Positions 7,328-21,334 of a DNA stretch of 21,424 nucleotides are shown here, piece by piece; the first letter of the stretch is position 1; each line of letters opens with the position of its first letter. The stretch is from a virus. The notes beneath the pieces are model-generated. The model did no database searches. It worked only from the letters and a program-made list of their open reading frames with translations, and was not told where the DNA came from. The stretch lies in IMG/VR virus record IMGVR_UViG_3300044977_000110, positions 1 to 21,424 of that record; one strand, written 5' to 3'. The position numbers and the translations under genes are program-made.

Positions 7328-7491
7328 CCCCGACCATAGCGAGTCTCGATCCCTGCGATTTGAAAAACATGAGTCCGACCCCATTCATAGTCTTTGATCC
7401 AGAGCGGCAGTAAATCTTCCTTTATTTCCGTGAAAACGTTCCGACGCTCCGGCAATTTTCCGCTCACATAAGCATCGTGTAACTCGCTCAT
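7213..7491 (-). CDS. Possible antisense gene between co-chaperonin and portal
   Basis: The minus strand encodes 92 residues from an ATG (7491-7489) that shares bases with the portal ATG on the other strand. It fills the otherwise empty 7328-7489 and overlaps the 3' end of the co-chaperonin gene by 115 bases. Its composition looks protein-like ('RRNVFTEIKEDLLPLWIKDY', 'GRGQEAIAGAVEDWLRRE'), more so than the antiparallel C-terminal tail of the co-chaperonin. No family is recognised and no Shine-Dalgarno is evident. It may be a late-acquired accessory gene or a chance frame. Confidence 0.35.
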   Translation of the reverse strand: MSELHDAYVSGKLPERRNVFTEIKEDLLPLWIKDYEWGRTHVFQIAGIETRYGRGQEAIAGAVEDWLRRESAALRFRELIGLESNTTLTSAS

Positions 7492-9676
7492 GCCCGTAAT
7501 TCTCGGCTCAAAATCTAAGAAACGCAACAAGAAGCTCGAAGCGAGCGAGGAGTTGATTGCCACCTCGCTCAAACGCTTCAAGATCACCGCCGAGTCTGAG
7601 TCGGAATCCCGCGCTAAGGCTCTCGAAGATTTGCGCTTCTCGATCGGCACCGGCCAGTGGGACGAATCGGTCAAAGCCAACCGGGAGATCGAAGGCAAAC
7701 CGTGTTTAACGATCAACCGAGCGCCAGCGTTCCTGCGTCAGTATACGGGAGAGGAGCGCCAGCACCGCCCCGCCATGCTGGTGAGCCCTGTGGGGAACGG
7801 CGCGGACAAGGAAGCCGCGAAGATTCACCAGGGCGTTCTCCGTCACATCGAAGTCGTGAGCGTAGCGGACGTAACCTACGACAACTCCTACGACATGATG
7901 ATGCGGATCGGCTGGTGTCCGTGGCGCGTGAACACAGAATTCGTCAGGGAGCGCAGCTTCGACCAGGAGCCGCGCATACAGTCGATCGAGAATCCCTTCG
8001 CAGTCTATCTCTCGCCAGTGCGCAGGCCGGATGGCACCGACCCGCTCTGGGGCCATGTCATCCGCGATTATTCAAAAGAAGAGTACGAGGCGGAATTCGG
8101 CAGTCAAGCCGAGATGGTGAAGTTAAATTTCCCCACCCAGCAAGGCGCTTCAGAGCCGGATTGGGTGACAAAGAACGGCTGCCGCGTGGCGGAATACTGG
8201 TGGATCGAGCTGCAGCCGAAAATCCTCTGCTTACTCGATGACGGCCAGACCAAACTCGAAGAAGAAGTGATCGACGACCTCACGAAAGCGCGGGTGATCG
8301 ACAAGCGCGACACTATCGTCCGCAAGGTGCACTGCGTCAAACACGACGCCATCTCGATCATCAAGAAATACGATTGGCTGGGCCGCTATCTTCCCTTCCC
8401 TGAAGTGAACGGCGTGCGGTTGAATGTGAACGGCAAGATTTACCGCTCAGGCATGGTGCGGGATTATCGCGACGCCCAGAGAATCTACGACTTCATGGTC
8501 ACCAGGCAGGTCGAGCAAGTTGACTTAGTAAGTAAAGACCCGCTCTGGGTGCCGAAACAGAATGCGCAGTATGAGAACGACTACCGGCAGATGAACCGGA
8601 AGAACTTCTCACACCTCTACTTCGAAACCCATGATGATCAAGGTCGGGAGTTGCCTCCTCCCACTCGCGCCGGCCGCGAAGCCCCAATTCAGGCCATGTC
8701 GGAGGTCATCAAACAGGCCGACTACGACATGAAGGCCGTGATCGGTATCTACGGGCCATCTTTGGGTGAGGAGTCTGGCAACGCCGATGAGTCCGGCTTT
8801 GCGATCCTCAGCCGCCAGGAACAATCGGACACTGGCTCCATCACCTGGCACGACAACCTGAACCGGGCAATCATGTGGCAGGGCACAATCCTCCTCGATC
8901 TCTGGCCGAAGCTGATCAATTCCGCCCGCGTGCAGCGCATCATCGACCCGGACGACAGCGTTCGCCATGCGGTGATTTACAACTCGCAGAATCAGACGGA
9001 CCAGGCAGACGCCGAGAAACTTTTCAACGCCGCACAAGGCCTGAAGAAGGCCTACGACGTGGGAGTCGGTGATTACGATCTTGTGCTCTCAACCGGCCCG
9101 ATGTACAAAACCGCGCGGCAAGAAGCATTCCGCGCGCTCACTGCGGTGATCAACGAAAATCCGCAGATGATGCTTCCGGTGGTAGGCGACATTTGGGCAA
9201 AGAACGCTGACTTCCCGGACGCAGATGTGCTGGCCGAGCGTTTCAAGAAGATGCTGCCGGCGAACCTGCAGGATAGTGACTCCGACGACCTGATGTCGAG
9301 GTACCAACAATTACTGGCGCAATATCAGCAGCTCACCGACCAGCACAACGTCATGCTGCAGGAACTCTCGCGCGCCGACGACACCATCCGCACGAAGCGG
9401 CTTGACCTCGAAAGCCGTGAGCGTGTCGCGCTGATGAACAATTTCACCCAGATCATGGTGCAGCGGCTGAAGTCGCACGATGCCGCAGCACAGGCCGCGA
9501 TGGACGCCCAGCTCGACGCTATTGCCGCGCGCCTGCAGTTGCTCCACGAAGGGCAGCCGGTTGCGGCAGATGCTGGCGATCCACCAAATACACCGGAGCT
9601 ATCACCCCAGGTAGAGCCGAAAGTGCAGCCGATCATCCCAGCAAGCCCGACGCCGCGGCCGCAACCGATTCAGTAA
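7490..9676 (+). CDS. Portal protein, P22 gp1 type
   Basis: This 728-residue protein is close to the 725 of P22 gp1, the dodecameric ring through which DNA enters and leaves the head. It has the family's opening: 'RAKALEDLRFSIGTGQW' (41-57), 'GKPCLTINRAPAFLRQYTGE' (69-88), 'RQHRPAMLVSP' (90-100), then 'NPFAVYLSP' (168-176). The middle contains the 'DESGFAILSRQEQSDTG' segment common in this family. The C-terminus from about residue 600 is a long Gln/Leu/Ala coiled coil ending in a proline- and glutamine-rich tail, comparable to the P22 barrel region. No strong Shine-Dalgarno precedes ATG 7490. Two short non-coding gaps separate it from its neighbours. Confidence 0.92.
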   Translation: MPVILGSKSKKRNKKLEASEELIATSLKRFKITAESESESRAKALEDLRFSIGTGQWDESVKANREIEGKPCLTINRAPAFLRQYTGEERQHRPAMLVSPVGNGADKEAAKIHQGVLRHIEVVSVADVTYDNSYDMMMRIGWCPWRVNTEFVRERSFDQEPRIQSIENPFAVYLSPVRRPDGTDPLWGHVIRDYSKEEYEAEFGSQAEMVKLNFPTQQGASEPDWVTKNGCRVAEYWWIELQPKILCLLDDGQTKLEEEVIDDLTKARVIDKRDTIVRKVHCVKHDAISIIKKYDWLGRYLPFPEVNGVRLNVNGKIYRSGMVRDYRDAQRIYDFMVTRQVEQVDLVSKDPLWVPKQNAQYENDYRQMNRKNFSHLYFETHDDQGRELPPPTRAGREAPIQAMSEVIKQADYDMKAVIGIYGPSLGEESGNADESGFAILSRQEQSDTGSITWHDNLNRAIMWQGTILLDLWPKLINSARVQRIIDPDDSVRHAVIYNSQNQTDQADAEKLFNAAQGLKKAYDVGVGDYDLVLSTGPMYKTARQEAFRALTAVINENPQMMLPVVGDIWAKNADFPDADVLAERFKKMLPANLQDSDSDDLMSRYQQLLAQYQQLTDQHNVMLQELSRADDTIRTKRLDLESRERVALMNNFTQIMVQRLKSHDAAAQAAMDAQLDAIAARLQLLHEGQPVAADAGDPPNTPELSPQVEPKVQPIIPASPTPRPQPIQ

Positions 9677-10823: not shown

Positions 10824-12092
10824 TTGGCCAACGTAATCCTTACCAACCAGGAGATTAGTTACAAGAACCTGATGGTGCTTGAGAACTCGATCTCGTTCAC
10901 CAAAAAGGTCGTCCGCCGCTACGACGACAAATTCGGGCGCGCGGGCGCAAAGATCGGCTACATCCTGAACATCCGCAAACCCGCCCGCTCCGTCTCAACC
11001 GCTGGGCAAGGCATCCAGCTTCAGGACTACATCGAGCGCTCGGTGCCCCTGGTGCTCAACAAGCAGTACCAGCAGGCCTGCGCCTTCACCTCCAGCGATC
11101 TTTCGCTCTCACTCGACGATTTCACCAACCGGGTGACGAAGCCGAAGATCGTGCAACTTGCCAACGACATCGACTACGACGGCCTGCAGCAGTTCATCAA
11201 CGTGCCGGCAGAAGTGGGGACGCCCGGAACGGTACCATCCTCCGCAGACACGTATCTGAACGTCCTGCAGGTGTTGGCCGATGAAGCCTTCCCGGTCGAC
11301 GATGAGGAAGGATTGTCCCTGCATATTTCACCGCGTATGCAGCGCAGCATTTTCCCGGCACTTCAAGGTCTCGTAGCAACCGGCTCCGGCACCGCGAGTT
11401 TCGCATTCCTGCGGAACCTGGCGAAGGGCGAGGGCGGCGGCGAGGACTTCTATAAAGGCCTGGTCGCAAAGGGCCTCGGCTTTGACTGGTTCATGACCCA
11501 GAACGCGCCGACGTTCACCACCGGCACTCAGGGCGGAACCCCGGTAGTCGACGGCGGAAGCCAGACCGGCAGCTCCATCCTGTCGAGTGGCTGGACGGCT
11601 TCGACGAACGTATTGAACCAGGGCGACATCATCACTTTCGCCGGAGTTCACAGAATCAACCCGCTGACCCGCCAGTCCACAGGTGACCTGCGACCCTTCG
11701 TGGTGACCGCGTCAGTGACCTCGAACGGCTCGGGAGTTGCCACGATCCCGATTGCCTGCGTCGACGGAGACGGCATCACCCTGGCCGGTCCTTACCAGAC
11801 GGTCGATGCTTCCCCGGCAGGGAACGCAGCCATCACCGTTTCTGGTGCCAGTGCTGTGACCAGCTACCGCGGCGTCGGATTCCATCCGGAAGCCTTCACC
11901 TTCGGCTGCGCGGATCTCGAAATGTATGAGAACCAGCACATGATGGAGATGGCGGCCGATAAAGAACTCGGCCTCGCGATCCGCATGTGGGCCCAGCCGG
12001 ACATCAATACCGACCGGCTCCTGATGCGTCTCGACGTGCTCGGCGGCTGGCTGACCATGTATCCGCAGGCGGCTGTCCGCATCGCAAGCTAA
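10824..12092 (+). CDS. Major capsid protein, P22 coat type
   Basis: This 422-residue protein is close to the 430 of P22 gp5 and starts at a TTG eight bases after AGGAG (10811-10815). The N-terminal part 'LTNQEISYKNLMVLENSI', then 'GAKIGYILNIRKPAR' (41-55) and 'DLSLSLDDFTNRVTKPKI' are typical of this branch of HK97-fold coat proteins. Residues about 225-345 are a beta-rich insertion with many Gly, Thr and Ser, in the place of the P22 telokin-like I-domain. The C-terminus returns to the core. A perfect hairpin follows the stop. High expression is likely. Confidence 0.92.
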   Translation: MANVILTNQEISYKNLMVLENSISFTKKVVRRYDDKFGRAGAKIGYILNIRKPARSVSTAGQGIQLQDYIERSVPLVLNKQYQQACAFTSSDLSLSLDDFTNRVTKPKIVQLANDIDYDGLQQFINVPAEVGTPGTVPSSADTYLNVLQVLADEAFPVDDEEGLSLHISPRMQRSIFPALQGLVATGSGTASFAFLRNLAKGEGGGEDFYKGLVAKGLGFDWFMTQNAPTFTTGTQGGTPVVDGGSQTGSSILSSGWTASTNVLNQGDIITFAGVHRINPLTRQSTGDLRPFVVTASVTSNGSGVATIPIACVDGDGITLAGPYQTVDASPAGNAAITVSGASAVTSYRGVGFHPEAFTFGCADLEMYENQHMMEMAADKELGLAIRMWAQPDINTDRLLMRLDVLGGWLTMYPQAAVRIAS

Positions 12093-12158: not shown

Positions 12159-13013
12159 ATGACCATCAGAAAAGCTGTATCGCTCTTTCTTCTTCTGGCG
12201 GGTTTGGCTGTACTGGCGGAAGGCCAGCAGGGTCAGAACGCTTTAACCGCAACCAACCTCTCAAGCTCGATTTCGAGCGGAACCACGCAATTCTGCCTGT
12301 CTTCGGTCACGGGCATTAACGCCCCAGGACCGTCGGCAACGCCGGTGAGCTGGATCTACGTGGATCGTGAAGCCATTGCGATCATGAGCGTCAACACCAG
12401 CACTAGTTGCGTGGGAGTCCGGCGCGGGGATCTCGGGACGCGAGCCGGTGCTCACCTCGCGGGCCAGGTAGTCCTGATCTCACAGGCCTACCAGACGCAG
12501 TTGGGGCTTGGGGGCAATCCCACGAACAACGGATTCGACGATCACGATCCATCGGTTGGCTCATTGTGCTATTCAACGAGCTCGCCGCTGGTGAGTCTGC
12601 CGCCGGCGTACCCGCTGCTCAATGTGCTGACCGGAGCACAATGGCTGTGCTCGACACTCACGAACGAATGGGTGCCGGGCTTCCAGAACCCTCTGGCGCC
12701 AGCTATCGCTTCCCCGACCACGGCGGTTGCTTCAGCCGCTTCGATCACACCGAGTGGACCGTTGTTTCACATCACCGGAACCACGCAAATTACCCTCATC
12801 AACGTCCCTGTGGGCTTTGCCGCGAATGGCACCACGGCGAACGTTGGAGGGGGGCAGTTTTGCGTGATCCCCGATGCCGCCTACACCACAGCGACGGGCG
12901 GGACCGCCACCGCCACGGCTGTGCCTTTGAAGAAAGCCAGCACCGCGGTAGCGGGGCAGACCATGTGCTTCACCTATGACCCGGTGAACAAACTGTTCGA
13001 CGCCTCGTACTAA
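12159..13013 (+). CDS. Exported beta-rich protein with Sec signal peptide
   Basis: Residues 1-22 form a clear Sec signal: basic start (RK), hydrophobic core 'AVSLFLLLAGLAVLA', and a cleavage site AEG|QQ. The mature part (about 262 residues) is rich in Ser, Thr, Ala and Gly. It holds cysteines at about 46, 64, 117, 144, 216 and 249 that could form disulfides outside the cytoplasm. The C-terminal 85 residues ('GTTQITLINVPVGFAANGT', a glycine turn, then 'FTYDPVNKLFDASY') resemble the beta modules of phage head fibres and decoration proteins. The gene follows the coat gene, where decoration proteins are often encoded, yet a signal peptide is unexpected there. AAGGAAA lies about a dozen bases before the ATG. 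Confidence 0.65.
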   Translation: MTIRKAVSLFLLLAGLAVLAEGQQGQNALTATNLSSSISSGTTQFCLSSVTGINAPGPSATPVSWIYVDREAIAIMSVNTSTSCVGVRRGDLGTRAGAHLAGQVVLISQAYQTQLGLGGNPTNNGFDDHDPSVGSLCYSTSSPLVSLPPAYPLLNVLTGAQWLCSTLTNEWVPGFQNPLAPAIASPTTAVASAASITPSGPLFHITGTTQITLINVPVGFAANGTTANVGGGQFCVIPDAAYTTATGGTATATAVPLKKASTAVAGQTMCFTYDPVNKLFDASY

Positions 13014-13017
13014 GACC

Positions 13018-13057
13018 GCGTGATTCACGCTTCGGGCGTTGAGCGCCATCAGCGCCC
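13018..13057 (+). other. Paired hairpins after the exported-protein gene
   Basis: GCGTGA/TCACGC (13018-13030) is followed by a nine-pair stem with one G-U, GGGCGTTGA (13034-13042) and TCAGCGCCC (13049-13057). The stop context TAAGACCG is the same as at the end of the coat gene, where another hairpin follows. No T-run is present, so a role in mRNA processing or stability is more likely than termination. Confidence 0.5.
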
Positions 13058-13086
13058 ACCAAATTCTCTTGAAAAGGAATATTCCA

Positions 13087-13371
13087 ATGGCTTACGAAAC
13101 GCAGGAACAGAAACTCGACGGAAAAACACCCGTCAAACCCACACCTTTCGACGCACATGAGCAAGCCACGCGCGGCACCCACATTCCCACTAAAGCCGGC
13201 GACAAAGAGCCGCACCCGGGCCAAGGCGCACAGTACCCGAAAGTCGTCGAACACCGGGAAGGCTCCGAGAAAGGCCAGCTCGACGCGGCGGTGATCGTCA
13301 ACTCGAAGGAAGAGGAAGACGCTTATCTGGCGAAGAAAGCGAAAGAAGAGAAGGCCGAGAAGAGCGCCTAG
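13087..13371 (+). CDS. Hypothetical highly charged small protein
   Basis: ATG 13087 follows AAAAGGAA at 13071-13078 with a good spacing, so I prefer it to the in-frame upstream start at 13039, which lies in the hairpins. The 94 residues are hydrophilic, with many Lys, Glu, Pro and His, and end in a short charged helix ('EEEDAYLAKKAKEEKAEKSA'). It is probably flexible. No family is recognised. Similar small charged proteins are common next to coat genes. Its TAG abuts the stop of the convergent minus-strand gene. Confidence 0.6.
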   Translation: MAYETQEQKLDGKTPVKPTPFDAHEQATRGTHIPTKAGDKEPHPGQGAQYPKVVEHREGSEKGQLDAAVIVNSKEEEDAYLAKKAKEEKAEKSA

Positions 13372-13545
13372 CTACTTCGGCAGTTTGTCGCCAATCGAAC
13401 GATCGTGCAGGAAGTCGAGGCCGTCTCGCATCTCAAAGCCCGCGAGGCGGCAGCCTTTCTTGTTGCAGTACCACGTTCCGTTTGTGCCGGAGAACTCTAG
13501 CGGTTGACCGCAGCGGACGCAACGTGGCTTTTTCAGTTTCTTCAC
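13372..13545 (-). CDS. Small zinc-ribbon protein on the minus strand
   Basis: This 57-residue gene fills the gap between two plus-strand genes. From GTG (13545-13543) it encodes a basic start 'MKKLKKPRCVRCGQPLEF', then 'GTWYCNKKGCRLAG', placing cysteines at 9, 12, 27 and 32 in a CxxC-x14-CxxxxC zinc ribbon with the usual aromatic and glycine turns. It ends with a short acidic-basic tail. The stop codon is directly next to the stop of the plus gene (TAGCTA at 13369-13374). The coherent zinc-ribbon pattern and exact fit into the gap argue that it is real. It could bind DNA or a protein partner. Confidence 0.65.
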   Translation of the reverse strand: MKKLKKPRCVRCGQPLEFSGTNGTWYCNKKGCRLAGFEMRDGLDFLHDRSIGDKLPK

Positions 13546-13567
13546 AGACCCATTCTAGGAGAGTCTC

Positions 13568-13879
13568 ATGGCAACAGAAAACTACAATCTCGAAGACCCC
13601 GCGGCACAGGAGCAGATTCGCCGCGGCCACCACGAATACCTACCCACCGCCGGCAAACATGGCCGCTACCAGAAAACCCAGTGGATTCGCGGTCCCCAGA
13701 ACGACTATCCGAAGATGATGGGGAAAGCCCCGGCTCCGAAGATGGCCGATTTCAAAGGCAAGCCCGACGCGCAGCAACTCTTCGATCAGGCGATGAAGGA
13801 GTGGGACACGTACATGACCTCGACCATCGTCCGCAATAAAGCGGAAGAGCAGGCCTGGCTCAAGGCGAACGCCGCCTAG
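13568..13879 (+). CDS. Hypothetical charged protein
   Basis: This protein of 103 residues has AGGAG (13557-13561) six bases before the ATG. It is polar, with 'EEQAWLKANAA' at the C-terminus and a central proline-, glycine- and lysine-rich stretch. Charge and length resemble the 13087 gene, and both end in a Glu/Ala/Lys helix, so they may be distant relatives or similar head-associated proteins. Its TAG and the TAG of the minus-strand gene share two bases in a CTAG palindrome at 13876-13879. Confidence 0.6.
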   Translation: MATENYNLEDPAAQEQIRRGHHEYLPTAGKHGRYQKTQWIRGPQNDYPKMMGKAPAPKMADFKGKPDAQQLFDQAMKEWDTYMTSTIVRNKAEEQAWLKANAA

Positions 13880-14130
13880 GGTCGCTTCGGTGAAGGCTGG
13901 GACGCTCTTGCTGGCGTCATTAGACTCCCGTCCTTCATCACGGCGCGGACGAAGCCAACACACTCCGCGCACAGCATCCAGTCGAGCACCCGGTCCCAGC
14001 CTTTCGGTGTCGGGTAGAGCCATGCGGGATCGGCGCTCTTGCGAATCTCGGCCTCTGCGGGAATTCCCAGAGTTGTGACCTGAACCTCTGGACTCTCTTT
14101 ACGGCAACGGTCGCACCGGACGATGAACAT
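13876..14130 (-). CDS. Small CxxC...CxxC zinc-binding protein on the minus strand
   Basis: The 84-residue protein has Cys6/Cys9 ('RCDRCRKE') and Cys54/Cys57 ('MLCAECVGF'), consistent with one structural zinc, with the intervening region containing 'WLYPTPKGWDRVLDW'. This layout is common in small phage and host proteins written as 'C..C....P.gW......lC..C'. It is convergent with the 13568 gene and divergent from the 14147 microprotein, with 16 bases between the divergent starts. No strong Shine-Dalgarno is visible. Function unknown. Confidence 0.6.
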   Translation of the reverse strand: MFIVRCDRCRKESPEVQVTTLGIPAEAEIRKSADPAWLYPTPKGWDRVLDWMLCAECVGFVRAVMKDGSLMTPARASQPSPKRP

Positions 14131-14146
14131 GTTCGGATTCTAACCC

Positions 14147-14239
14147 ATGACCAACCGCGATTTCACGATGATGCTGATCGGGGTCGGGATCACTCTTGTG
14201 TTCATGGGCTCCGCCATGTGGCTGCTGGGGTATTTCTGA
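14147..14239 (+). CDS. 30-residue membrane microprotein
   Basis: ATG 14147 to TGA 14239 encodes 30 residues: a polar MTNRDF followed by a single hydrophobic span to 'WLLGYF'. It lies between the minus-strand zinc protein and the next plus gene, whose TTG start begins one base after its TGA, suggesting coupled translation. A lone transmembrane peptide in a virion cluster may be a membrane accessory factor. Because of its size it could also be only a leader for the next gene. Confidence 0.45.
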   Translation: MTNRDFTMMLIGVGITLVFMGSAMWLLGYF

Positions 14240-14240
14240 A

Positions 14241-14534
14241 TTGGGAACGCTTCTCAACTTCAAGCAGTACACCCTCACGGCGGGAACCTGGACGCCCTGC
14301 TACTTGTCCGGGTTGGTCTCAAAGGCTTGGCTGACTTTTCCAGCCGACATCCTGATCGGCAGCTCAGAGACGGATGCCACGCAGCAGAAGTATCTCTCGG
14401 TCGCGGACAACGGAAACGAGTACATGATTCCGCTGCCGGGAAACACGGACATGGGAAAGCAGACCCTGGTCTGCTATTTGACGGCGGCCAGCGGCACGGT
14501 CGAAGTGATGCTTGAAAGCGTGGGTTCCGCATGA
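14241..14534 (+). CDS. Small beta-rich structural-type protein
   Basis: From TTG 14241, immediately after the microprotein stop and ten bases after GGGG, the product is 97 residues. It shows alternating strands with Thr, Ser and Gly ('FKQYTLTAGTWTPCYLSG', 'YLSVADNGNEYMIPLPGN', 'GTVEVMLESV'). The upstream in-frame ATG at 14196 lies inside the microprotein gene and would add a non-matching segment. The composition fits a head decoration or fibre-type protein but no family is named. Unlike its two downstream neighbours it has no signal peptide. Its stop is ten bases before the next ATG. Confidence 0.6.
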   Translation: MGTLLNFKQYTLTAGTWTPCYLSGLVSKAWLTFPADILIGSSETDATQQKYLSVADNGNEYMIPLPGNTDMGKQTLVCYLTAASGTVEVMLESVGSA

Positions 14535-14544
14535 GGGAATCTCT

Positions 14545-15168
14545 ATGAGCCAAACACAAAAGAACTGGGCCGCCATGGCCTTCGTCTTCATCGCGCTTTT
14601 TTTTCTCGCGGTGAGCGGGGGCGTCTACGCCCAACAGCAGTTCTCGGGCGGGCAGGCAGTGACGATCACCTCCGGCACGACTACGGTCACGCAGGCGACC
14701 GGGAGCAATTTGCATGTTGCAGTCGACTCCGCCCCGACGACTGCCGTGACTGGAACTTTCTGGCAGACCACTCAGCCAGTGAGCCTCGCGACGGCTCCAG
14801 CTCTGGTCGCAGGGACGGCGCTGATCGGTGAAACCTACCCTTATACCGGATGCGGAACAACGCGAGTGGAAAGCGGCTCTCCGGCGGGAGCTGCGGCGCT
14901 CTCGGCCTCAACCGTTACGGTCGAATCGACCACCACCTGTGTGCTCAGCTTCATCGTCAGCAACACCGGATCGGCTTCCTTCACCTACTACGTCACCGAC
15001 AATGCGGCCACGCCCATCCCGGTCTGGGGCAGCTCCTCGAACCCGATCACGATTCTTCCCGGCGAGCGCGACGAGTACACATTCCAGAATGGGGTGAAGT
15101 TCAACGCCGGATTGAAGCTGACCGCGAGCGCAACGACCGGATCGTACTACCTTTTGGGAATTCAGTGA
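14545..15168 (+). CDS. Exported beta-rich protein with Sec signal peptide (AQQQ)
   Basis: ATG 14545 follows GAGGGAA at a good distance and encodes 207 residues. The N-terminus is a signal peptide: polar/basic start to K6, hydrophobic core (residues 9-25) and cleavage site VYA|QQQ. The mature part is almost entirely Thr, Ser, Ala, Gly and Val in short strands, with two cysteines about 30 residues apart that could form a disulfide. The end 'YTFQNGVKFNAGLKLTAS' looks like the final strands of a jelly-roll or Ig-like domain. It is coupled to the next gene, whose GTG directly follows its TGA. Possible roles are a periplasmic or surface protein, or a virion protein that passes the membrane. Confidence 0.6.
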   Translation: MSQTQKNWAAMAFVFIALFFLAVSGGVYAQQQFSGGQAVTITSGTTTVTQATGSNLHVAVDSAPTTAVTGTFWQTTQPVSLATAPALVAGTALIGETYPYTGCGTTRVESGSPAGAAALSASTVTVESTTTCVLSFIVSNTGSASFTYYVTDNAATPIPVWGSSSNPITILPGERDEYTFQNGVKFNAGLKLTASATTGSYYLLGIQ

Positions 15169-15735
15169 GTGAGACGCTTTTATCTAGTCGTGGGATTTCT
15201 GCTGTTTGCCTCATCCCTTTGGGCGCAGCAGCAGGTTGTTCTCCCGACGACCACCACCAAAGGGACACAGGGCGCGACGGCGCTCACCACGCAGGACCTC
15301 AAGGACTCGGGACGAAACCGGATCACGTTCACCGCCGATCGCTTGACTCCGGCCGCGAGCGACACGCTGGTCACCTTCGTTCTGAACAAGGGCGGCACGG
15401 CGACCACGGCCCAGACCACTTACAGCGTCAGCAGCGGGAAAACATTTCGAGTTCAATCGGTCTACCTCGGAGTGGCCGATTCGACGACAACCGCCGTCTC
15501 TGTGCGTGTGGCCTTACGGGAAAACACCGGGGGAACATGCGCGGCGACCTCCGCGGCGGCAGTCGTGCTGAACGCGGCGACTCCCTCCGCGGTTGCAGCA
15601 GAAGGCAGCGCGGGCGCGGAGCTATCCGTTCCGGATGGCCTCGAATTTCCGGCGTCGGACAGCATGTGTATTTCGGCCATCGCGAGCACGGCCACGGGAA
15701 CCATGACGATCACAGTCGTCGGCTACGAATACTGA
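15169..15735 (+). CDS. Exported beta-rich protein with Sec signal peptide (AQQQ)
   Basis: This 188-residue protein starts at GTG 15169, directly after the previous stop. The N-terminus has basic RR at 2-3, a hydrophobic core 'FYLVVGFLLFASS' and a cleavage site LWA|QQQ, so the mature protein begins with the same three glutamines as the preceding gene. The mature part is Thr/Ser/Ala-rich with strands such as 'GKTFRVQSVYLGVAD' and 'TGTMTITVVGYEY', and two cysteines at about 124 and 164. The two neighbours may be diverged copies or partners in one complex. No enzyme motif is seen. Confidence 0.6.
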   Translation: MRRFYLVVGFLLFASSLWAQQQVVLPTTTTKGTQGATALTTQDLKDSGRNRITFTADRLTPAASDTLVTFVLNKGGTATTAQTTYSVSSGKTFRVQSVYLGVADSTTTAVSVRVALRENTGGTCAATSAAAVVLNAATPSAVAAEGSAGAELSVPDGLEFPASDSMCISAIASTATGTMTITVVGYEY

Positions 15736-15750
15736 GCGCCTAAAACCTTT

Positions 15751-16563
15751 ATGCCAGTCCTCCCTCCATCGAATCCCCTAGCTCTCTCTGCGCAGGACTT
15801 CATCAAGTCCGCACTGCGCCTGGTGGGAGCGCTACGTTCTGGGTTGAATCTCACCAAGGATGAGTTGAATGACTCGCTATTGGTCCTCAACTCGATGCTC
15901 GATGCCTTCTCAATCGAGCGCACGCAGATTCCCGCGGTCAGCATCGTCTCAACCAACACTGCGCAGGTTCCGCTGACGCTCGTCGCCAATCAAGCGTCCT
16001 ACAAACTGGGGAATGTGCTCGGCACGGAAGATTTCCTGTTACCCCGTCCCTCGCGTCTGGAGCGCGTTTCCATTATGTACTCGGCCTCGCAATCCACCCC
16101 GGTCGAGTTGCCGATGGAGATGCTGAACAACCAGCAGTGGCAGGGGATCACCAACAAGTCGACGACTTCCCTTCTCCCGCAAGTTTGCTTCGTGGATAAA
16201 TCGGAGACGGTTTTCCCGGACATGCTGCTGTACTTCTGGCCGATCCCGACGCAGGCGAACCCGGTGATTCTCTACCTGTGGCAGCTACTCCAGCAGTTCA
16301 CGAGTCTCACCGCGCAGTTCTTGTTCCCGCCGGGCTACGCGGAGATGCTGCGCTACCAGTTGGCGGTGAGGCTGGCGGCGGAATTTCCCTGCGACCTGCA
16401 GAAATTCCAGATCGTGCAGAAGTCGGCGGCGGATGCGAAAGATCGAATCTCCAGCCAGAATGTGGAAGCGCAAGTCGCAGTCTGCGATGAAGCCATCGTG
16501 GGATCGAACGGGAAGATGGGGAACATCTTTACGGGGACGGCGAACCGGTCACTCAGGTACTAG
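15751..16563 (+). CDS. Tail accessory factor, P22 gp4 type
   Basis: The 270-residue protein lies where P22 gp4 does, between the coat region and the gp10-like gene. Its N-terminus has the family's helical opening 'AQDFIKSALRLVGAL' and 'LNDSLLVLNSMLDAFSIERT' (short helix, L-x-x-L-N-x-M-L-x-x-[FW]). A central beta part follows, with 'PVILYLW' in place of the usual F-x-[LF]-[YW]-P-x-P stretch, then a C-terminal helix 'MLRYQLAVRLAAEFPCD'. gp4 binds under the portal ring to close the filled head and hold the tail. The protein is longer than P22 gp4 (166 aa), as in many relatives. Its 3' end overlaps the minus-strand gene by 11 bases. Confidence 0.75.
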   Translation: MPVLPPSNPLALSAQDFIKSALRLVGALRSGLNLTKDELNDSLLVLNSMLDAFSIERTQIPAVSIVSTNTAQVPLTLVANQASYKLGNVLGTEDFLLPRPSRLERVSIMYSASQSTPVELPMEMLNNQQWQGITNKSTTSLLPQVCFVDKSETVFPDMLLYFWPIPTQANPVILYLWQLLQQFTSLTAQFLFPPGYAEMLRYQLAVRLAAEFPCDLQKFQIVQKSAADAKDRISSQNVEAQVAVCDEAIVGSNGKMGNIFTGTANRSLRY

Positions 16564-16904: not shown

Positions 16905-18719
16905 ATGAGATTCGGGTTCGTCGGCCCCGCGTATCTTTTCGCCAGCCCTTTGGTCGCGGCGGAGCAGTTGATCAACTGGCGTCCGATCAAAGCGGAATCA
17001 CCCAATGCGCGCACGGCCTTCGCCCTACTCCCCACTTCGGGCCTGAGCCTGTTCGCGAACCTCGCTGCCGAGATCAGCGGCGGACTACCGTCGGTGCGCG
17101 GCGAGTGGACGGGAAACGGGCGAGCCTTCTGCGTCTCGGGAACGCATCTATTTGAAGTGAACGCCCTGGGCGGGGTGACGGACTACGGGGACAACAGCGT
17201 CGCCAATAACAATATCGAAGATGACGGATTACCGGCGACGCTGGTAGCGGGTGGAACCGTCGGTGGAGTGATTCTCGGCAACGCCCAGAAGATTCTCGGC
17301 GCAATCATCTCCAGTCCCACGACGGCGGCCATCACGGTAGCCTCGGGCGCGGGATTCGCTGCAAATGCCAATGCCGTCCTCGCAGGCATCACCAACCCGC
17401 TTTTTGCGCAGCTCAATGGCACGTGGCAAGTCGCTTCCATCGTGGGAAATGTCGTCAATCTCACCACTTCCGGGCTCACGGTCGAACCACAAACGGCACT
17501 GACCGCGGGAACTGCGACGCCGAGCAGCGTCGGCGCTGGGGCCTATCCATCACAATTGCTCATCTGCTCGGGCGGAAATCTGACCGTTTTCTCACTCTCC
17601 TCGAATGCCTTCCAGCCGCTGACAACTCCGCCGGCCGACAATTTGATGGTCGATTTCCTCGACGGCTACTTCATCGCCCTGCAGGCAAATAACACCTTCA
17701 GCATCTCGAATCCCGAAGATGCGACGACCTGGCCCGGCTTATCTCTCTCCCAGGTGCAGGTTTTCTCCGATCAGCTTTTGGCGATCATCGCAGCCAATCG
17801 CCTGCTTTGCGTCTTTGGCTCGAAACGCGCGGTCTTTTACTACACCTCGGGCGCGCCGATTTTCCCCTTGGACGTGGTCAGCGGCGGATTCATGGAAGTC
17901 GGCATCGTTGCGCAATTCTCCGCGGCGCGCATCGCTACGCGGCAGGGTACAACCATTCTGTGGCTCGGGGGTGATGAACGCGGCCAGGGCGTGGTTTACG
18001 CCGCAAACGGTTTCGTGCCGCAACGGGTGTCGGATTCCGCGTTTGAGTACTGGATGTCGCAGCAGACGACGATTTCTGATGCCGTGGGGATGGCGCGGCA
18101 GGAAGAGGGCCAGAACTTCTACGATCTCTGGTTCCCTTCCGCGAATGCGACCTGGACGCTCGATATTGATCTCGGCTGGTGGCACCGGCGCTCATCCCTG
18201 GTGAACGGAGTCGAAGCGGCCCACCTGCAGCGCTCCCATATGAATGCCTTCGGTTTTCACCTGATCGGAGACCGGACCAGCGGCAACGTCTACAAGCTGA
18301 GCGCGAACTTCCCGACGGACAATGGCACGCCCATTCTGCGTACTCGAGTGGGACCGACGATCGAGAACGAAGGTGGTCAGATCACGGTCCCCATCAACGA
18401 ATTTCAGGTGGATTTTGAAACCGGACTCGGGCCAATCCCGCCCCTGACGGACGGCTTCGGCAATCCCCGCGATCCCTACGCGATGTTTTCCTACTCGGAA
18501 GATTACGGAAAGACCTGGACGCCGGAAAGACAGATCGCGTGCGGTCAGGCGGGAAACTCGAAAGTCGTCGCCATTGACCGGCGGCTCGGGAGCTGGCGGA
18601 GCTGGACGCCTCGAGTCAGAGTCTCCGACCCGATCCAGTGGCGCATCGCCGATGCCTACACGAATTCGACGCAAGATCAGAAGAAGCGGCTGGCGAAGAG
18701 CCTGGCGGAGATCAGCTAA
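16905..18719 (+). CDS. DNA-stabilisation tail protein, P22 gp10 type
   Basis: This is 604 residues of a beta-propeller-like protein. The N-terminus 'GPAYLFASPLVAAEQLINWR' and 'ALLPTSGLSL' is the family's opening. Later motifs include 'DFLDGYFIALQANNTFSISN' (about 250-269), a conserved 'PVWPGLS'-type strand, 'RLLCVFGSKRAVFYYTSG', and 'VVSGGFMEVGIVAQFSAAR', which match the gp10 signature of G-S-x-x-[AE] and P-x-[DE]-V-x-x-G-G. gp10 binds beneath gp4 and holds DNA in the head. An insertion of about 85 residues (128-213), Thr/Ala/Gly-rich with 'LNGTWQVASIVGNVVNL', makes it longer than P22 gp10 (472 aa). It ends in a lysine-rich tail. Confidence 0.8.
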   Translation: MRFGFVGPAYLFASPLVAAEQLINWRPIKAESPNARTAFALLPTSGLSLFANLAAEISGGLPSVRGEWTGNGRAFCVSGTHLFEVNALGGVTDYGDNSVANNNIEDDGLPATLVAGGTVGGVILGNAQKILGAIISSPTTAAITVASGAGFAANANAVLAGITNPLFAQLNGTWQVASIVGNVVNLTTSGLTVEPQTALTAGTATPSSVGAGAYPSQLLICSGGNLTVFSLSSNAFQPLTTPPADNLMVDFLDGYFIALQANNTFSISNPEDATTWPGLSLSQVQVFSDQLLAIIAANRLLCVFGSKRAVFYYTSGAPIFPLDVVSGGFMEVGIVAQFSAARIATRQGTTILWLGGDERGQGVVYAANGFVPQRVSDSAFEYWMSQQTTISDAVGMARQEEGQNFYDLWFPSANATWTLDIDLGWWHRRSSLVNGVEAAHLQRSHMNAFGFHLIGDRTSGNVYKLSANFPTDNGTPILRTRVGPTIENEGGQITVPINEFQVDFETGLGPIPPLTDGFGNPRDPYAMFSYSEDYGKTWTPERQIACGQAGNSKVVAIDRRLGSWRSWTPRVRVSDPIQWRIADAYTNSTQDQKKRLAKSLAEIS

Positions 18720-18733
18720 TGGTAGTTCTTTAG

Positions 18734-19297
18734 ATGACCCAGCAGCCCACGCGCGAATTACTGGACACGATTGTCCCGCAGGACTGGGATAGCCAGAAAC
18801 CCGGCGCGAACACAGGTTTCTCGCGCACGCGCTGGTTGCAGGGAGTCAGTGACCTGGTCAAGCGGCCGGTGGTGAATCGCGGAACAGCCTCGACCTCCGC
18901 CACCGCAGTAGTGCCGGACGGTGCGATCGTCTCCAGCGGAGTCGGGACGCCCAACCCGCTCACGCCGAAACGCTATGCGGAGTTCACGGTCAAAGCGCGT
19001 GTCACCTATTCCGTCAATACCCCGTCGGATGTGTACGTCTACGTTCATCGCACCGCAGGCGCAATCCCCGCCAATGGCTCACCACCAAACGCAGACGACG
19101 TGATCGTGGGAGGCGACGCCTTCGCCGGCGGCCATGTTTCTGCAGCGGGCGTGAATGAGATCGGGACACTCTCTTTTCTCGATACGAACCTCAGCGTGAA
19201 CGGAAAATATAACTATTACCTGTCGGTGAAAGCGCCAAGCGGCGCCACAGTGAACCTGACAAATTCTTCGCAGTTGCTGGTCATGGAGCGCAGCTAG
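18734..19297 (+). CDS. Beta-rich tail-region structural protein
   Basis: The 187-residue protein starts at ATG 18734 without a clear Shine-Dalgarno. The first 50 residues are polar, with 'DWDSQKPGANTGFSRTRWLQ'. The rest is a beta domain with strands 'RYAEFTVKARVTYSVNT', 'DVYVYVHRTAG' and 'KYNYYLSVKAPSGATVNLT', as in Ig-like or carbohydrate-binding modules. No signal peptide. The place after gp10 fits a minor tail component. Its TAG overlaps the GTG of the sulfotransferase-like gene by one base. Confidence 0.6.
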   Translation: MTQQPTRELLDTIVPQDWDSQKPGANTGFSRTRWLQGVSDLVKRPVVNRGTASTSATAVVPDGAIVSSGVGTPNPLTPKRYAEFTVKARVTYSVNTPSDVYVYVHRTAGAIPANGSPPNADDVIVGGDAFAGGHVSAAGVNEIGTLSFLDTNLSVNGKYNYYLSVKAPSGATVNLTNSSQLLVMERS

Positions 19298-19875
19298 TGA
19301 TCACGATCGTCTCAGGGCTGCCACGCTCCGGCACTTCGATGATGATGCAGATGCTCACTGCCGGCGGGATGAAGATTCACGCCGAGAACGAGCACACCGC
19401 CGACACCTACAACCCCCGCGGATATTTTGAGTGGTTGCGAGTCAAGGAACTGCAGGAGAATCCGGAGCTGATCGCGGAGGCCGAAGACAAGGCGGTGAAG
19501 GTGTTCTCGCCCTTTCTGCCATTTCTCTCACCCGAACACGACTACCAGGTCCTGTTGATGCAGCGGCCGCTCGCGGAAGTTCTGAGATCGCAGGCCGAGA
19601 TCCTGCGCGGCGACAACAAGAAGCAGGAACCCAAAGCAGACCCGAAAGCCGTCCAGCAGGCATTTCAGTGGCACCTCACCAACGTCGATGAATGGCAGGA
19701 GAGCCGGCCGAATATGCGTTTTCTGCGCGTGGACTACCATTCCGTCCTCCGTGAGCCGGAAGTGATCGCCAGAGAGATCGCTGTTTTTCTGAACCGGCCG
19801 CTGAAGATCGAAGCCATGGCCGAACAAGTGGATCCGAAACTCTACCGCGTTCGACTGGAATTGGCGCATGCCTGA
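19297..19875 (+). CDS. Sulfotransferase-like protein
   Basis: This protein of 192 residues opens 'MITIVSGLPRSGTSMMMQML', the PAPS-binding P-loop ('G-[LF]-P-R-S-G-T') of the sulfotransferase family, which transfers sulfate from PAPS to a hydroxyl or amine. It also has 'NPRGYFE' (39-45), 'KAVKVFSPFLPFL' (65-77) and 'LLMQRPLAEVLRSQ' (86-99), whose Arg90 and Ser98 correspond to the 3'-phosphate-binding pair. It is short for a bacterial sulfotransferase, which is often 250-300 residues. The tight overlap with genes on both sides means it is expressed with the tail operon. It may modify a virion protein, capsular sugar or lipopolysaccharide; the substrate is unknown. Confidence 0.8.
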   Translation: MITIVSGLPRSGTSMMMQMLTAGGMKIHAENEHTADTYNPRGYFEWLRVKELQENPELIAEAEDKAVKVFSPFLPFLSPEHDYQVLLMQRPLAEVLRSQAEILRGDNKKQEPKADPKAVQQAFQWHLTNVDEWQESRPNMRFLRVDYHSVLREPEVIAREIAVFLNRPLKIEAMAEQVDPKLYRVRLELAHA

Positions 19876-20131: not shown

Positions 20132-21334
20132 ATGCCTTTACTGATCGCGGGCGGCATTGCAGCGGGGACTTCCCTCCTGGGGGGATTGTTCGGCGCCAGT
20201 GCGTCGTCAAAGGCCGCACAAGAGCAGGAAGCGGCCGAGCAGAAAGGGATCAACCTTCTCCAGGGCGACCAGACCACCGGCGAGGCTAATTACCAGCCCT
20301 ATCTCACGGCGGGAAGCACAGCGACGGGAACGCTCGCTAGTCTTCTTGGCACGCCTGGCTCTGGGCTCCTCACTCCCTGGACGCAACAATTTACATTGCC
20401 GACGGCCGCGCAGGCCGCCGCGACTCCCGGTTATCAGTTTCAACTCCAGGAAGGGGAACAGGCGGCGCAAAACTCGGCCGCCGGCCAAGGATCCCTGCTT
20501 TCCGGCCGCACGCTCGCGAGCCTCAACAATTACGCCCAGGGCGCGGCTTCAACCAACTACCAGAACACAGTCGGCAATGAACTAACCCAGTACCAGTCGG
20601 CCTACAACACCTTCCTGAACAACCAGAACAACGCCTACGCCCGCTTGATGGGTCTGTCCAGCCAGGGATTGCAGGCTGCAGGCGGGGCGGGAAGCCTGCT
20701 CGCGAACCTCGGCGGAGATACAGCCACCTTGCTGTCCGGCCAAGGCGCGGCCGCCGCAGCGGGAACCGTCGGCTCCGCGAACGCCATCAGTGGAGGCCTC
20801 ACCGGTGCCGGCAATGCACTCTCTGGCGACCTGACACTCTCGGCGCTCCTTGGCAATGGTGGAATGTCCGGTCCCTATGGAAACATCACGGGTACGCCGG
20901 TCTCAGGCGGATCGCTCCCACCTGGCTATAGCGGAACCCCAACCGCTCCCTATAGTCCATTTAATCTGCCTCCCGGCTCGTCAGGCGTCGCTCCCACGCT
21001 TCCCGGCTATGCGGCGGGCACGGATTTCGCTCCCGGCGGTCCCAGCATTGTCGGCGAGGGGGGGCCGGAAGTGGTCAACTTGCCGCGTGGATCTCAGGTT
21101 ATTCCGAACGGAGCGCCGCCGCGCGCCATTGATCCGGGCTTTGGCACCGGGCCGCAAGCGCCAGGCTCGCCAATAGCCCGGCCGATCGGCGCCCCACCTT
21201 ACCAGCCTCAGCCCTTACCGATCGGAGGTCCCGCGCGGCCGGTTAGTGGTTCTCCCTTTAATAATCCCGCTTACCCCTCGCCTTACCCCGTCTGGGGCGG
21301 CGGCGGCATGATGCCGATGAGAGCACTGGCCTAA
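20132..21334 (+). CDS. DNA ejection protein, gp7-like, with tape-measure-like C-terminal motif
   Basis: This 400-residue protein begins with a glycine-rich membrane-like segment 'LLIAGGIAAGTSLLGGLFG', typical of ejection proteins that enter the host envelope. The block 99-185 ('PGYQFQLQEGEQAAQ', 'RTLASLNNYAQGAASTNYQN', 'YNTFLNNQNNAYARLMGLS') matches the family's conserved 'PGY.F.l..G..a....aa..G..sG' and Asn/Gln-rich helices. Residues 187-240 are Ala/Gly repeats. At 296-326 it carries 'GTDFAPGGPSIVGEGGPE' and 'NLPRGSQVIPN', a motif best known from the C-terminus of tape-measure proteins. The remainder is a proline- and glycine-rich tail. It would be packaged in the head and injected to form a channel. 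Confidence 0.75.
   Translation: MPLLIAGGIAAGTSLLGGLFGASASSKAAQEQEAAEQKGINLLQGDQTTGEANYQPYLTAGSTATGTLASLLGTPGSGLLTPWTQQFTLPTAAQAAATPGYQFQLQEGEQAAQNSAAGQGSLLSGRTLASLNNYAQGAASTNYQNTVGNELTQYQSAYNTFLNNQNNAYARLMGLSSQGLQAAGGAGSLLANLGGDTATLLSGQGAAAAAGTVGSANAISGGLTGAGNALSGDLTLSALLGNGGMSGPYGNITGTPVSGGSLPPGYSGTPTAPYSPFNLPPGSSGVAPTLPGYAAGTDFAPGGPSIVGEGGPEVVNLPRGSQVIPNGAPPRAIDPGFGTGPQAPGSPIARPIGAPPYQPQPLPIGGPARPVSGSPFNNPAYPSPYPVWGGGGMMPMRALA

Follow-up and report, generated by a model that had tools for sequence, protein, structure and literature searches.

In the window, by which is meant the whole of the 21,424-base IMG/VR record IMGVR_UViG_3300044977_000110, three genes of a P22-like soil podovirus, probably one from Acidobacteriota (Bryobacterales), lie between the P22 coat gene and the SU10-type adaptor gene, and each begins with what reads as a Sec signal peptide. 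We put at somewhat better than even, roughly 0.57, the chance that their products, here called SP1, SP2 and SP3, are external parts of the virion that would leave the cytoplasm by Sec, acquire disulfides in the periplasm and attach to particles at lysis or later. Whether they point to a lineage of tailed phages with two-compartment assembly, with capsid and injection machinery cytoplasmic and receptor-binding or other outer parts Sec-exported and mounted at lysis, is to our minds evenly poised. Textbook accounts place the assembly of tailed phages wholly in the cytoplasm, we know of no tailed phage in which outer parts take an exported route, and, if true, this would be a new assembly principle. 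The three genes and their predicted signals are as follows.

12159..13013, + strand: SP1, core coat-adjacent exported-type protein, 284 amino acids, beside the coat gene in almost every relative
12159..12224, + strand: predicted Sec signal of SP1, MTIRKAVSLFLLLAGLAVLAEG, with the putative cleavage site before QQ
14545..15168, + strand: SP2, accessory exported fibre-type protein, 207 amino acids, with relatives in L002 and L014, both having signals
14545..14631, + strand: predicted Sec signal of SP2, MSQTQKNWAAMAFVFIALFFLAVSGGVYA, ending ...LAVSGGVYA, with the putative cleavage site before QQQ
15169..15735, + strand: SP3, accessory exported fibre-tip protein, 188 amino acids, with a TNF/C1q-like jelly-roll model
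15169..15225, + strand: predicted Sec signal of SP3, MRRFYLVVGFLLFASSLWA, GTG start read as M, with the putative cleavage site before QQQ

How secure are the signals? The original prediction, of three open reading frames (ORFs) with Sec signals, glutamine starts and paired cysteines between coat and adaptor, holds in the window: the frames are where it placed them, starting at ATG 12159, ATG 14545 and GTG 15169, and the mature parts have six (SP1), two (SP2) and two (SP3) cysteines. Signals were called by one rule, requiring a basic n-region, a hydrophobic core and small residues at −3 and −1, together with inspection by eye, and by that rule all three N-termini look like those of Sec and signal peptidase I substrates. 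A coat-protein search gathered 49 relatives, all metagenomic contigs, and in practically all of those that reach far enough a gene for an SP1 homologue, at about 40–96% identity, is directly 3′ of the coat gene. The family N-terminus is of Sec type, with a small residue at its end and usually glutamine next; the rule called signals in 45 of 48 SP1 proteins, and 41 of the 45 calls have glutamine at +1. Applied to core controls it called none in 178 (12 terminase, 30 portal, 48 scaffold, 51 coat and 37 adaptor proteins) and none in 44 ejection proteins, and the contrast with the core genes rules out a chance hydrophobic N-terminus. Calls in the head-closure protein Hc3 (MRFGFVGPAYLFASPLVAAEQ), confined to the window and L083 and marginal in both, were judged false. 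A misread start codon is ruled out since the signal, an upstream AG-rich stretch resembling a ribosome site, and the frame recur in dozens of relatives. That the proteins are of exported type, as had been claimed, gains from the same kind of signal being on the coat-adjacent gene in essentially every relative.

Could these N-termini nevertheless not be working export signals? The proteins would then be cytoplasmic, with the hydrophobic stretch an anchor or a leader into the virion, and disulfides would form only post-lysis. P22 gp7 has a cleaved leader, all tailed-phage structural assembly known to us is cytoplasmic, and the signal calls are all rule-based. However, the Sec anatomy is complete, with small −3 and −1 residues and a +1 glutamine as in the presumed host order, and cysteine pairs are found only in signal-bearing members; the signal-less ones, which would be equally exposed after lysis, have none. 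We hold this account to be quite improbable.

The cysteine evidence comes from alignment A2, for which the family was broadened by profile search to 58 sequences, 52 of them with a signal. The mature cysteine count is even in 51 of the 52, the exception, L114, being cut by a contig end. For the window's SP1 the predicted pairs are C46-C84, C137-C164 and C235-C270. Cysteine sites differ among SP1 subgroups and always shift as pairs of columns: 95/149 (13/13), 99/148 (15/15), 93/151 (3/3), 217/247 (52/52), 333/373 (12/12) and 48/59 (2/2), and for the main other C-terminal sites 316 or 375 is paired with 330/331 in 37 of 38. When columns were shuffled independently the mean was 26 even sequences and the maximum 39, with none of 20,000 shuffles reaching 51; relatedness inflates this test, and at 80% identity 43 of 44 representatives are still even. 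Cysteines are absent altogether from the six signal-less members (L095, L176, L183, L184, L188 and L189), and in L095, L176, L184 and L188 the coat gene is directly upstream. The L095 coat is 86% identical to that of the window, yet its SP1 homologue, short and at 30% identity, is without signal, middle domain and cysteines. Control proteins have near-random parity (coat 23/48 even, portal 18/30), and cysteines per 100 amino acids number 2.15 in SP1 and 2.47 and 2.22 in the two tailspike types of the relatives, as against 0.00–0.03 in ejection proteins and 0.08 in scaffold. Even, covarying cysteines confined to exported members are found in SP1, in the type A tailspikes and in the SP3 family (small numbers). 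Because the pairs covary and the signal-less homologues have no cysteines, export and disulfides appear to evolve together, and export of the outer proteins is well supported by these comparisons.

All this fits equally well with exported proteins that are not virion parts, fibre or adhesin modules that would coat the host envelope or its receptors and block superinfection or the loss of progeny on debris. Late co-transcription with the structural genes would time such a shield to virion release, adhesin-type folds such as the TNF/C1q-like tip could bind host surfaces, and exported Q-rule proteins with no assigned role are described in Porphyromonas phages (PMC10367356). We regard a secreted shield as unlikely, though it is the chief rival, and what counts against it comes largely from the relatives. 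Longer relative contigs, including one of 39 kb in a Bryobacterales metagenome-assembled genome (MAG), have two or more large genes directly after the cysteine-free ejection genes. In the products termed type A, the domain directly behind the signal matches the N-terminal head-binding domain of the Pam1-type tailspike (9VYG, E 7e-13; 7EEQ, E 1.1e-12; also 9VYH). Signals are present in 15 of the 16 distinct type A proteins of the group, and the 13 that are complete and signal-bearing all have even cysteine counts, of 8–16; the phage of the lone signal-less one (L288) has a signal-less SP1 homologue too. Type B proteins have signals in 10 of 10, and one of them, with 767 residues, looks beta-helix-like by eye and has a weak match to the K1-lyase C-terminal domain. 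Among 66 head-binding-domain proteins of other phages there is no genuine signal (where the rule gave two hits, it had picked up the start of the domain itself), and the annotated tailspike genes of the cultured phages Pam1, PBR31 and X14 start at the domain, with no signal; compared with all of these, the relatives' domain is preceded by a signal with +1 glutamine, and cysteines have been gained. The tailspike gene of PBR31 comes right after those for the internal, or ejection, proteins, as do the signal-bearing tailspike-type genes of the relatives. A docking domain on signal-bearing proteins encoded in the PBR31 tailspike position counts against a secreted shield, as does the fact that in the contigs with such proteins no signal-less tailspike with the domain was seen; and whether or not the SP1 of a lineage has a signal, its gene adjoins the coat gene.

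The original prediction had named surface display or superinfection exclusion as possible roles, and for these nothing specific has been found so far; Pfam and PHROGs scans gave no homology to any known exclusion protein. SieA of P22 and the lipoproteins Llp and Cor are phage-encoded extracytoplasmic exclusion proteins, but the SP proteins differ from them in having neither a lipobox nor a membrane anchor in the mature part, in being encoded in the late virion cluster and in their adhesin folds. What fits best is its other suggestion, that these are parts which the virion gains at lysis, given the covariation of cysteine pairs, the loss of cysteines where homologues have no signal and the head-binding domains behind signals in relatives.

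How would such a virion be put together? Late in infection the portal, scaffold, coat, adaptor and ejection proteins would form a core particle in the cytoplasm. Meanwhile the outer parts would be made with signal peptides, exported by Sec, cleaved to expose the +1 glutamine and given their disulfide-bonded fold in the periplasm, and lysis by holin and endolysin would mix the compartments so that outer parts could dock on finished particles. The tailspike-type proteins of the lineage would take the same route. Four things are read directly from sequence: the signals, the covarying cysteine pairs, the joint absence of both and, in relatives, a signal followed by a docking domain. From them we infer that the proteins are exported by Sec, cleaved and oxidised in the periplasm, and that they dock on particles once lysis has brought the two compartments together. 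Late docking is plausible because P22 tailspikes add to finished heads in vitro. The attachment of SP1, SP2 and SP3 to virions is less certain than that of the tailspike types because a recognised docking domain is present only on the latter: relatives' type A proteins have the head-binding domain, and SP1, SP2 and SP3 do not.

Several points weigh against external virion parts assembled in this way. The window stops short of the tailspike genes. Only 7 of the 10 type B proteins have an even number of cysteines. The mosaic phage G275 has a signal-less SP1 homologue and a signal-bearing fibre, and L285:7801-9951 with L184:5695-6411, a mosaic phage, combines a signal-less coat-adjacent protein with a signal-bearing 16-cysteine fibre; the existence of mosaics means that the trait is set per protein and is not all or nothing. 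A 187-amino-acid, signal-less, cysteine-poor protein conserved across most relatives (window 18734-19297), for which a PDB comparison gave no notable match, could be a tail part of cytoplasmic origin. Finally, open-licence literature on exported tailspikes, tail fibres and decoration proteins yielded no Sec-exported case, the searches on exported fibres and decoration returning papers on phage display, lysis and annotation together with the Porphyromonas case. The same searches turned up no P22-like phage with such a set, in keeping with what had been claimed. The protein families are of known kinds, and what is new, within the searches made, is the export and the way it goes together with cysteine pairs. 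Were it true, the disulfide-hardened adhesins of soil phages would be explained, and the periplasm would be full of free phage adhesins by the time of lysis, which would bear on superinfection and on the masking of receptors.

What, then, is SP1? As part of the best explanation, and with the same modest lean in its favour, it would be an accessory or decoration protein, coat-adjacent and core to the lineage. Behind its N-domain comes a conserved middle domain with two cysteines, and the C-terminal domain is of beta type. The N-domain is a module found in the tail-tip and tail-fibre proteins of phages, matching the minor tail protein 8vjh_A by profile (E 1.4e-5), and 44 of the 58 members match phrog_1101, one of the tail and tail-fibre PHROGs. 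A structure model with a predicted local distance difference test score (pLDDT) of 81 is all-beta except for the signal. Naming the fold from a PDB fold search was dropped, the matches being mostly partial, with low TM-scores, and many of them to phage virion proteins. Like SP1, GP4 gp1, the Pam1 cement protein and Dec of phage L are small beta proteins encoded beside the coat gene, and virion-protein folds are among SP1's best structural matches; unlike the GP4, Pam1 and L cement proteins, with which sequence homology is not shown, SP1 has a signal, three cysteine pairs and extra domains. Against cultured-phage proteins, SP1, SP2 and the signal-less L183 homologue gave no match, and a search of eight cultured head-binding-domain phages, made without a positive control, found no member of the SP1 family. 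Other signal-bearing proteins are encoded nearby in some relatives: long cysteine-rich ones, reaching 1149 amino acids and 28 cysteines, in the gap between portal and scaffold genes (L103:294-3740, L104:6419-8467, L110:6522-8633 and L122:763-1707), and a four-cysteine one directly upstream of the adaptor gene, in the place of SP3 (L189:6928-7347), though the SP1 homologues there are signal-less.

The three proteins do not form a set of equal standing. All have signals, as claimed, but only SP1 is core to the lineage; SP2 and SP3 are accessory, and the closest relative, L083, has neither. Recurrence at the same place, offered as a check, accordingly divides, SP1 being in nearly all relatives and SP2 and SP3 patchy. 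Heading the accessory cassette is one further ORF.

14196..14534, + strand: small signal-less beta-type ORF, with a similar ORF before the SP2-like genes in L002 and L014 (by eye)

SP2 consists of a GTFWQTTQPVS repeat module and then a C-terminal beta region with two cysteines. L002 encodes a relative of SP2 over its full length (66%), with a second signal-bearing gene next, and L014 has a comparable pair of SP2-like and second genes (33%). The domain family of SP3 includes fibre-type proteins at 35 loci. Fold relatives had been proposed as a check, and the SP3 model (pLDDT 81.9) is a jelly roll of TNF/C1q type, with the SP1 N-domain, as already seen, a tail-protein module by profile. The best PDB structural match of SP3 is a portal-tail chain of cyanophage A4 (E 2e-4), with TNF-family ligands and C1q heads next; its profile found no match among PDB sequences. 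The SP1 and SP3 models suit external, trimer-type virion parts, and, within the preferred reading and at its level of confidence, SP2 and SP3 may together form an accessory cassette for a fibre, SP2 as the repeat-bearing shaft and SP3 as a trimer-type jelly-roll tip. Patchy accessory genes, and family matches on Bryobacterales genome contigs, could also suggest moron-type or lysogenic-conversion factors secreted to serve the bacterium or prophage, in adhesion or biofilm, and in the late cluster by chance. This is very unlikely: the SP1 gene, which immediately follows the coat gene, belongs to the conserved core and is read in the direction of the virion genes, and no lysogeny gene or integration site has been shown for the group. 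GTFWQxTQPVS repeat proteins also occur in unrelated phages (L007, L017, L019, L021, L036, L053, L055, L059, L066, L067 and L073), some with clear Sec signals and most without, and fibre export may be wider than the lineage; as main evidence this family was dropped, its cysteine contrast being weak (0.66 versus 0.33 per 100 amino acids).

The glutamine-rich mature starts are present as described and are probably accounted for in large part by a +1 glutamine habit, seen as an enrichment in Bryobacterales genomes. Predicted signal peptides there have +1 glutamine in 25–44% (small samples), above adjacent positions, and the glutaminyl cyclase PF05096, the one cyclase type searched, is in two of five genomes. 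In Bacteroidetes a Q-rule places glutamine at +1 of secreted mature proteins (PMC5837995). As in those proteins (PMC5837995, PMC10653852) and the exported Q-rule proteins of Porphyromonas phages (PMC10367356), glutamine here follows the signal peptidase site, and the Porphyromonas case also resembles ours in having host-adapted signals on phage genes. However, the presumed host here is an acidobacterium, and the proteins are virion-cluster appendages. Family matches were found in 19 of 257 genomes of the MAG's order, three besides the MAG itself being strong and nearly full length; prophages and co-binned viruses are not told apart in these counts.

P22-type portal, coat, adaptor, head-closure and first ejection genes come in that order in the window by Pfam and PHROGs.

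7490..9676, + strand: P22-like portal, no signal (PF16510, 2.4e-118)
10824..12092, + strand: P22-like major coat protein, no signal (PF11651, 7.7e-26)
15751..16563, + strand: SU10-type head-tail adaptor, no signal (PF24175, 1.7e-7)
16905..18719, + strand: head-closure Hc3 protein (phrog_578, 3.7e-68)
20132..21334, + strand: first DNA-ejection protein (phrog_598, 1.7e-24)

Upstream of the terminase genes there is a serine-recombinase-like ORF (1628-2242; MNLALYARVSKN...VVWKLDRFGRS). Directly upstream of the first ejection gene is a sulfotransferase-like ORF (19297-19875; MITIVSGLPRSGTSMMMQML), also present in L083, L087 and L107, and in some relatives an acetyltransferase-like ORF is at that spot.

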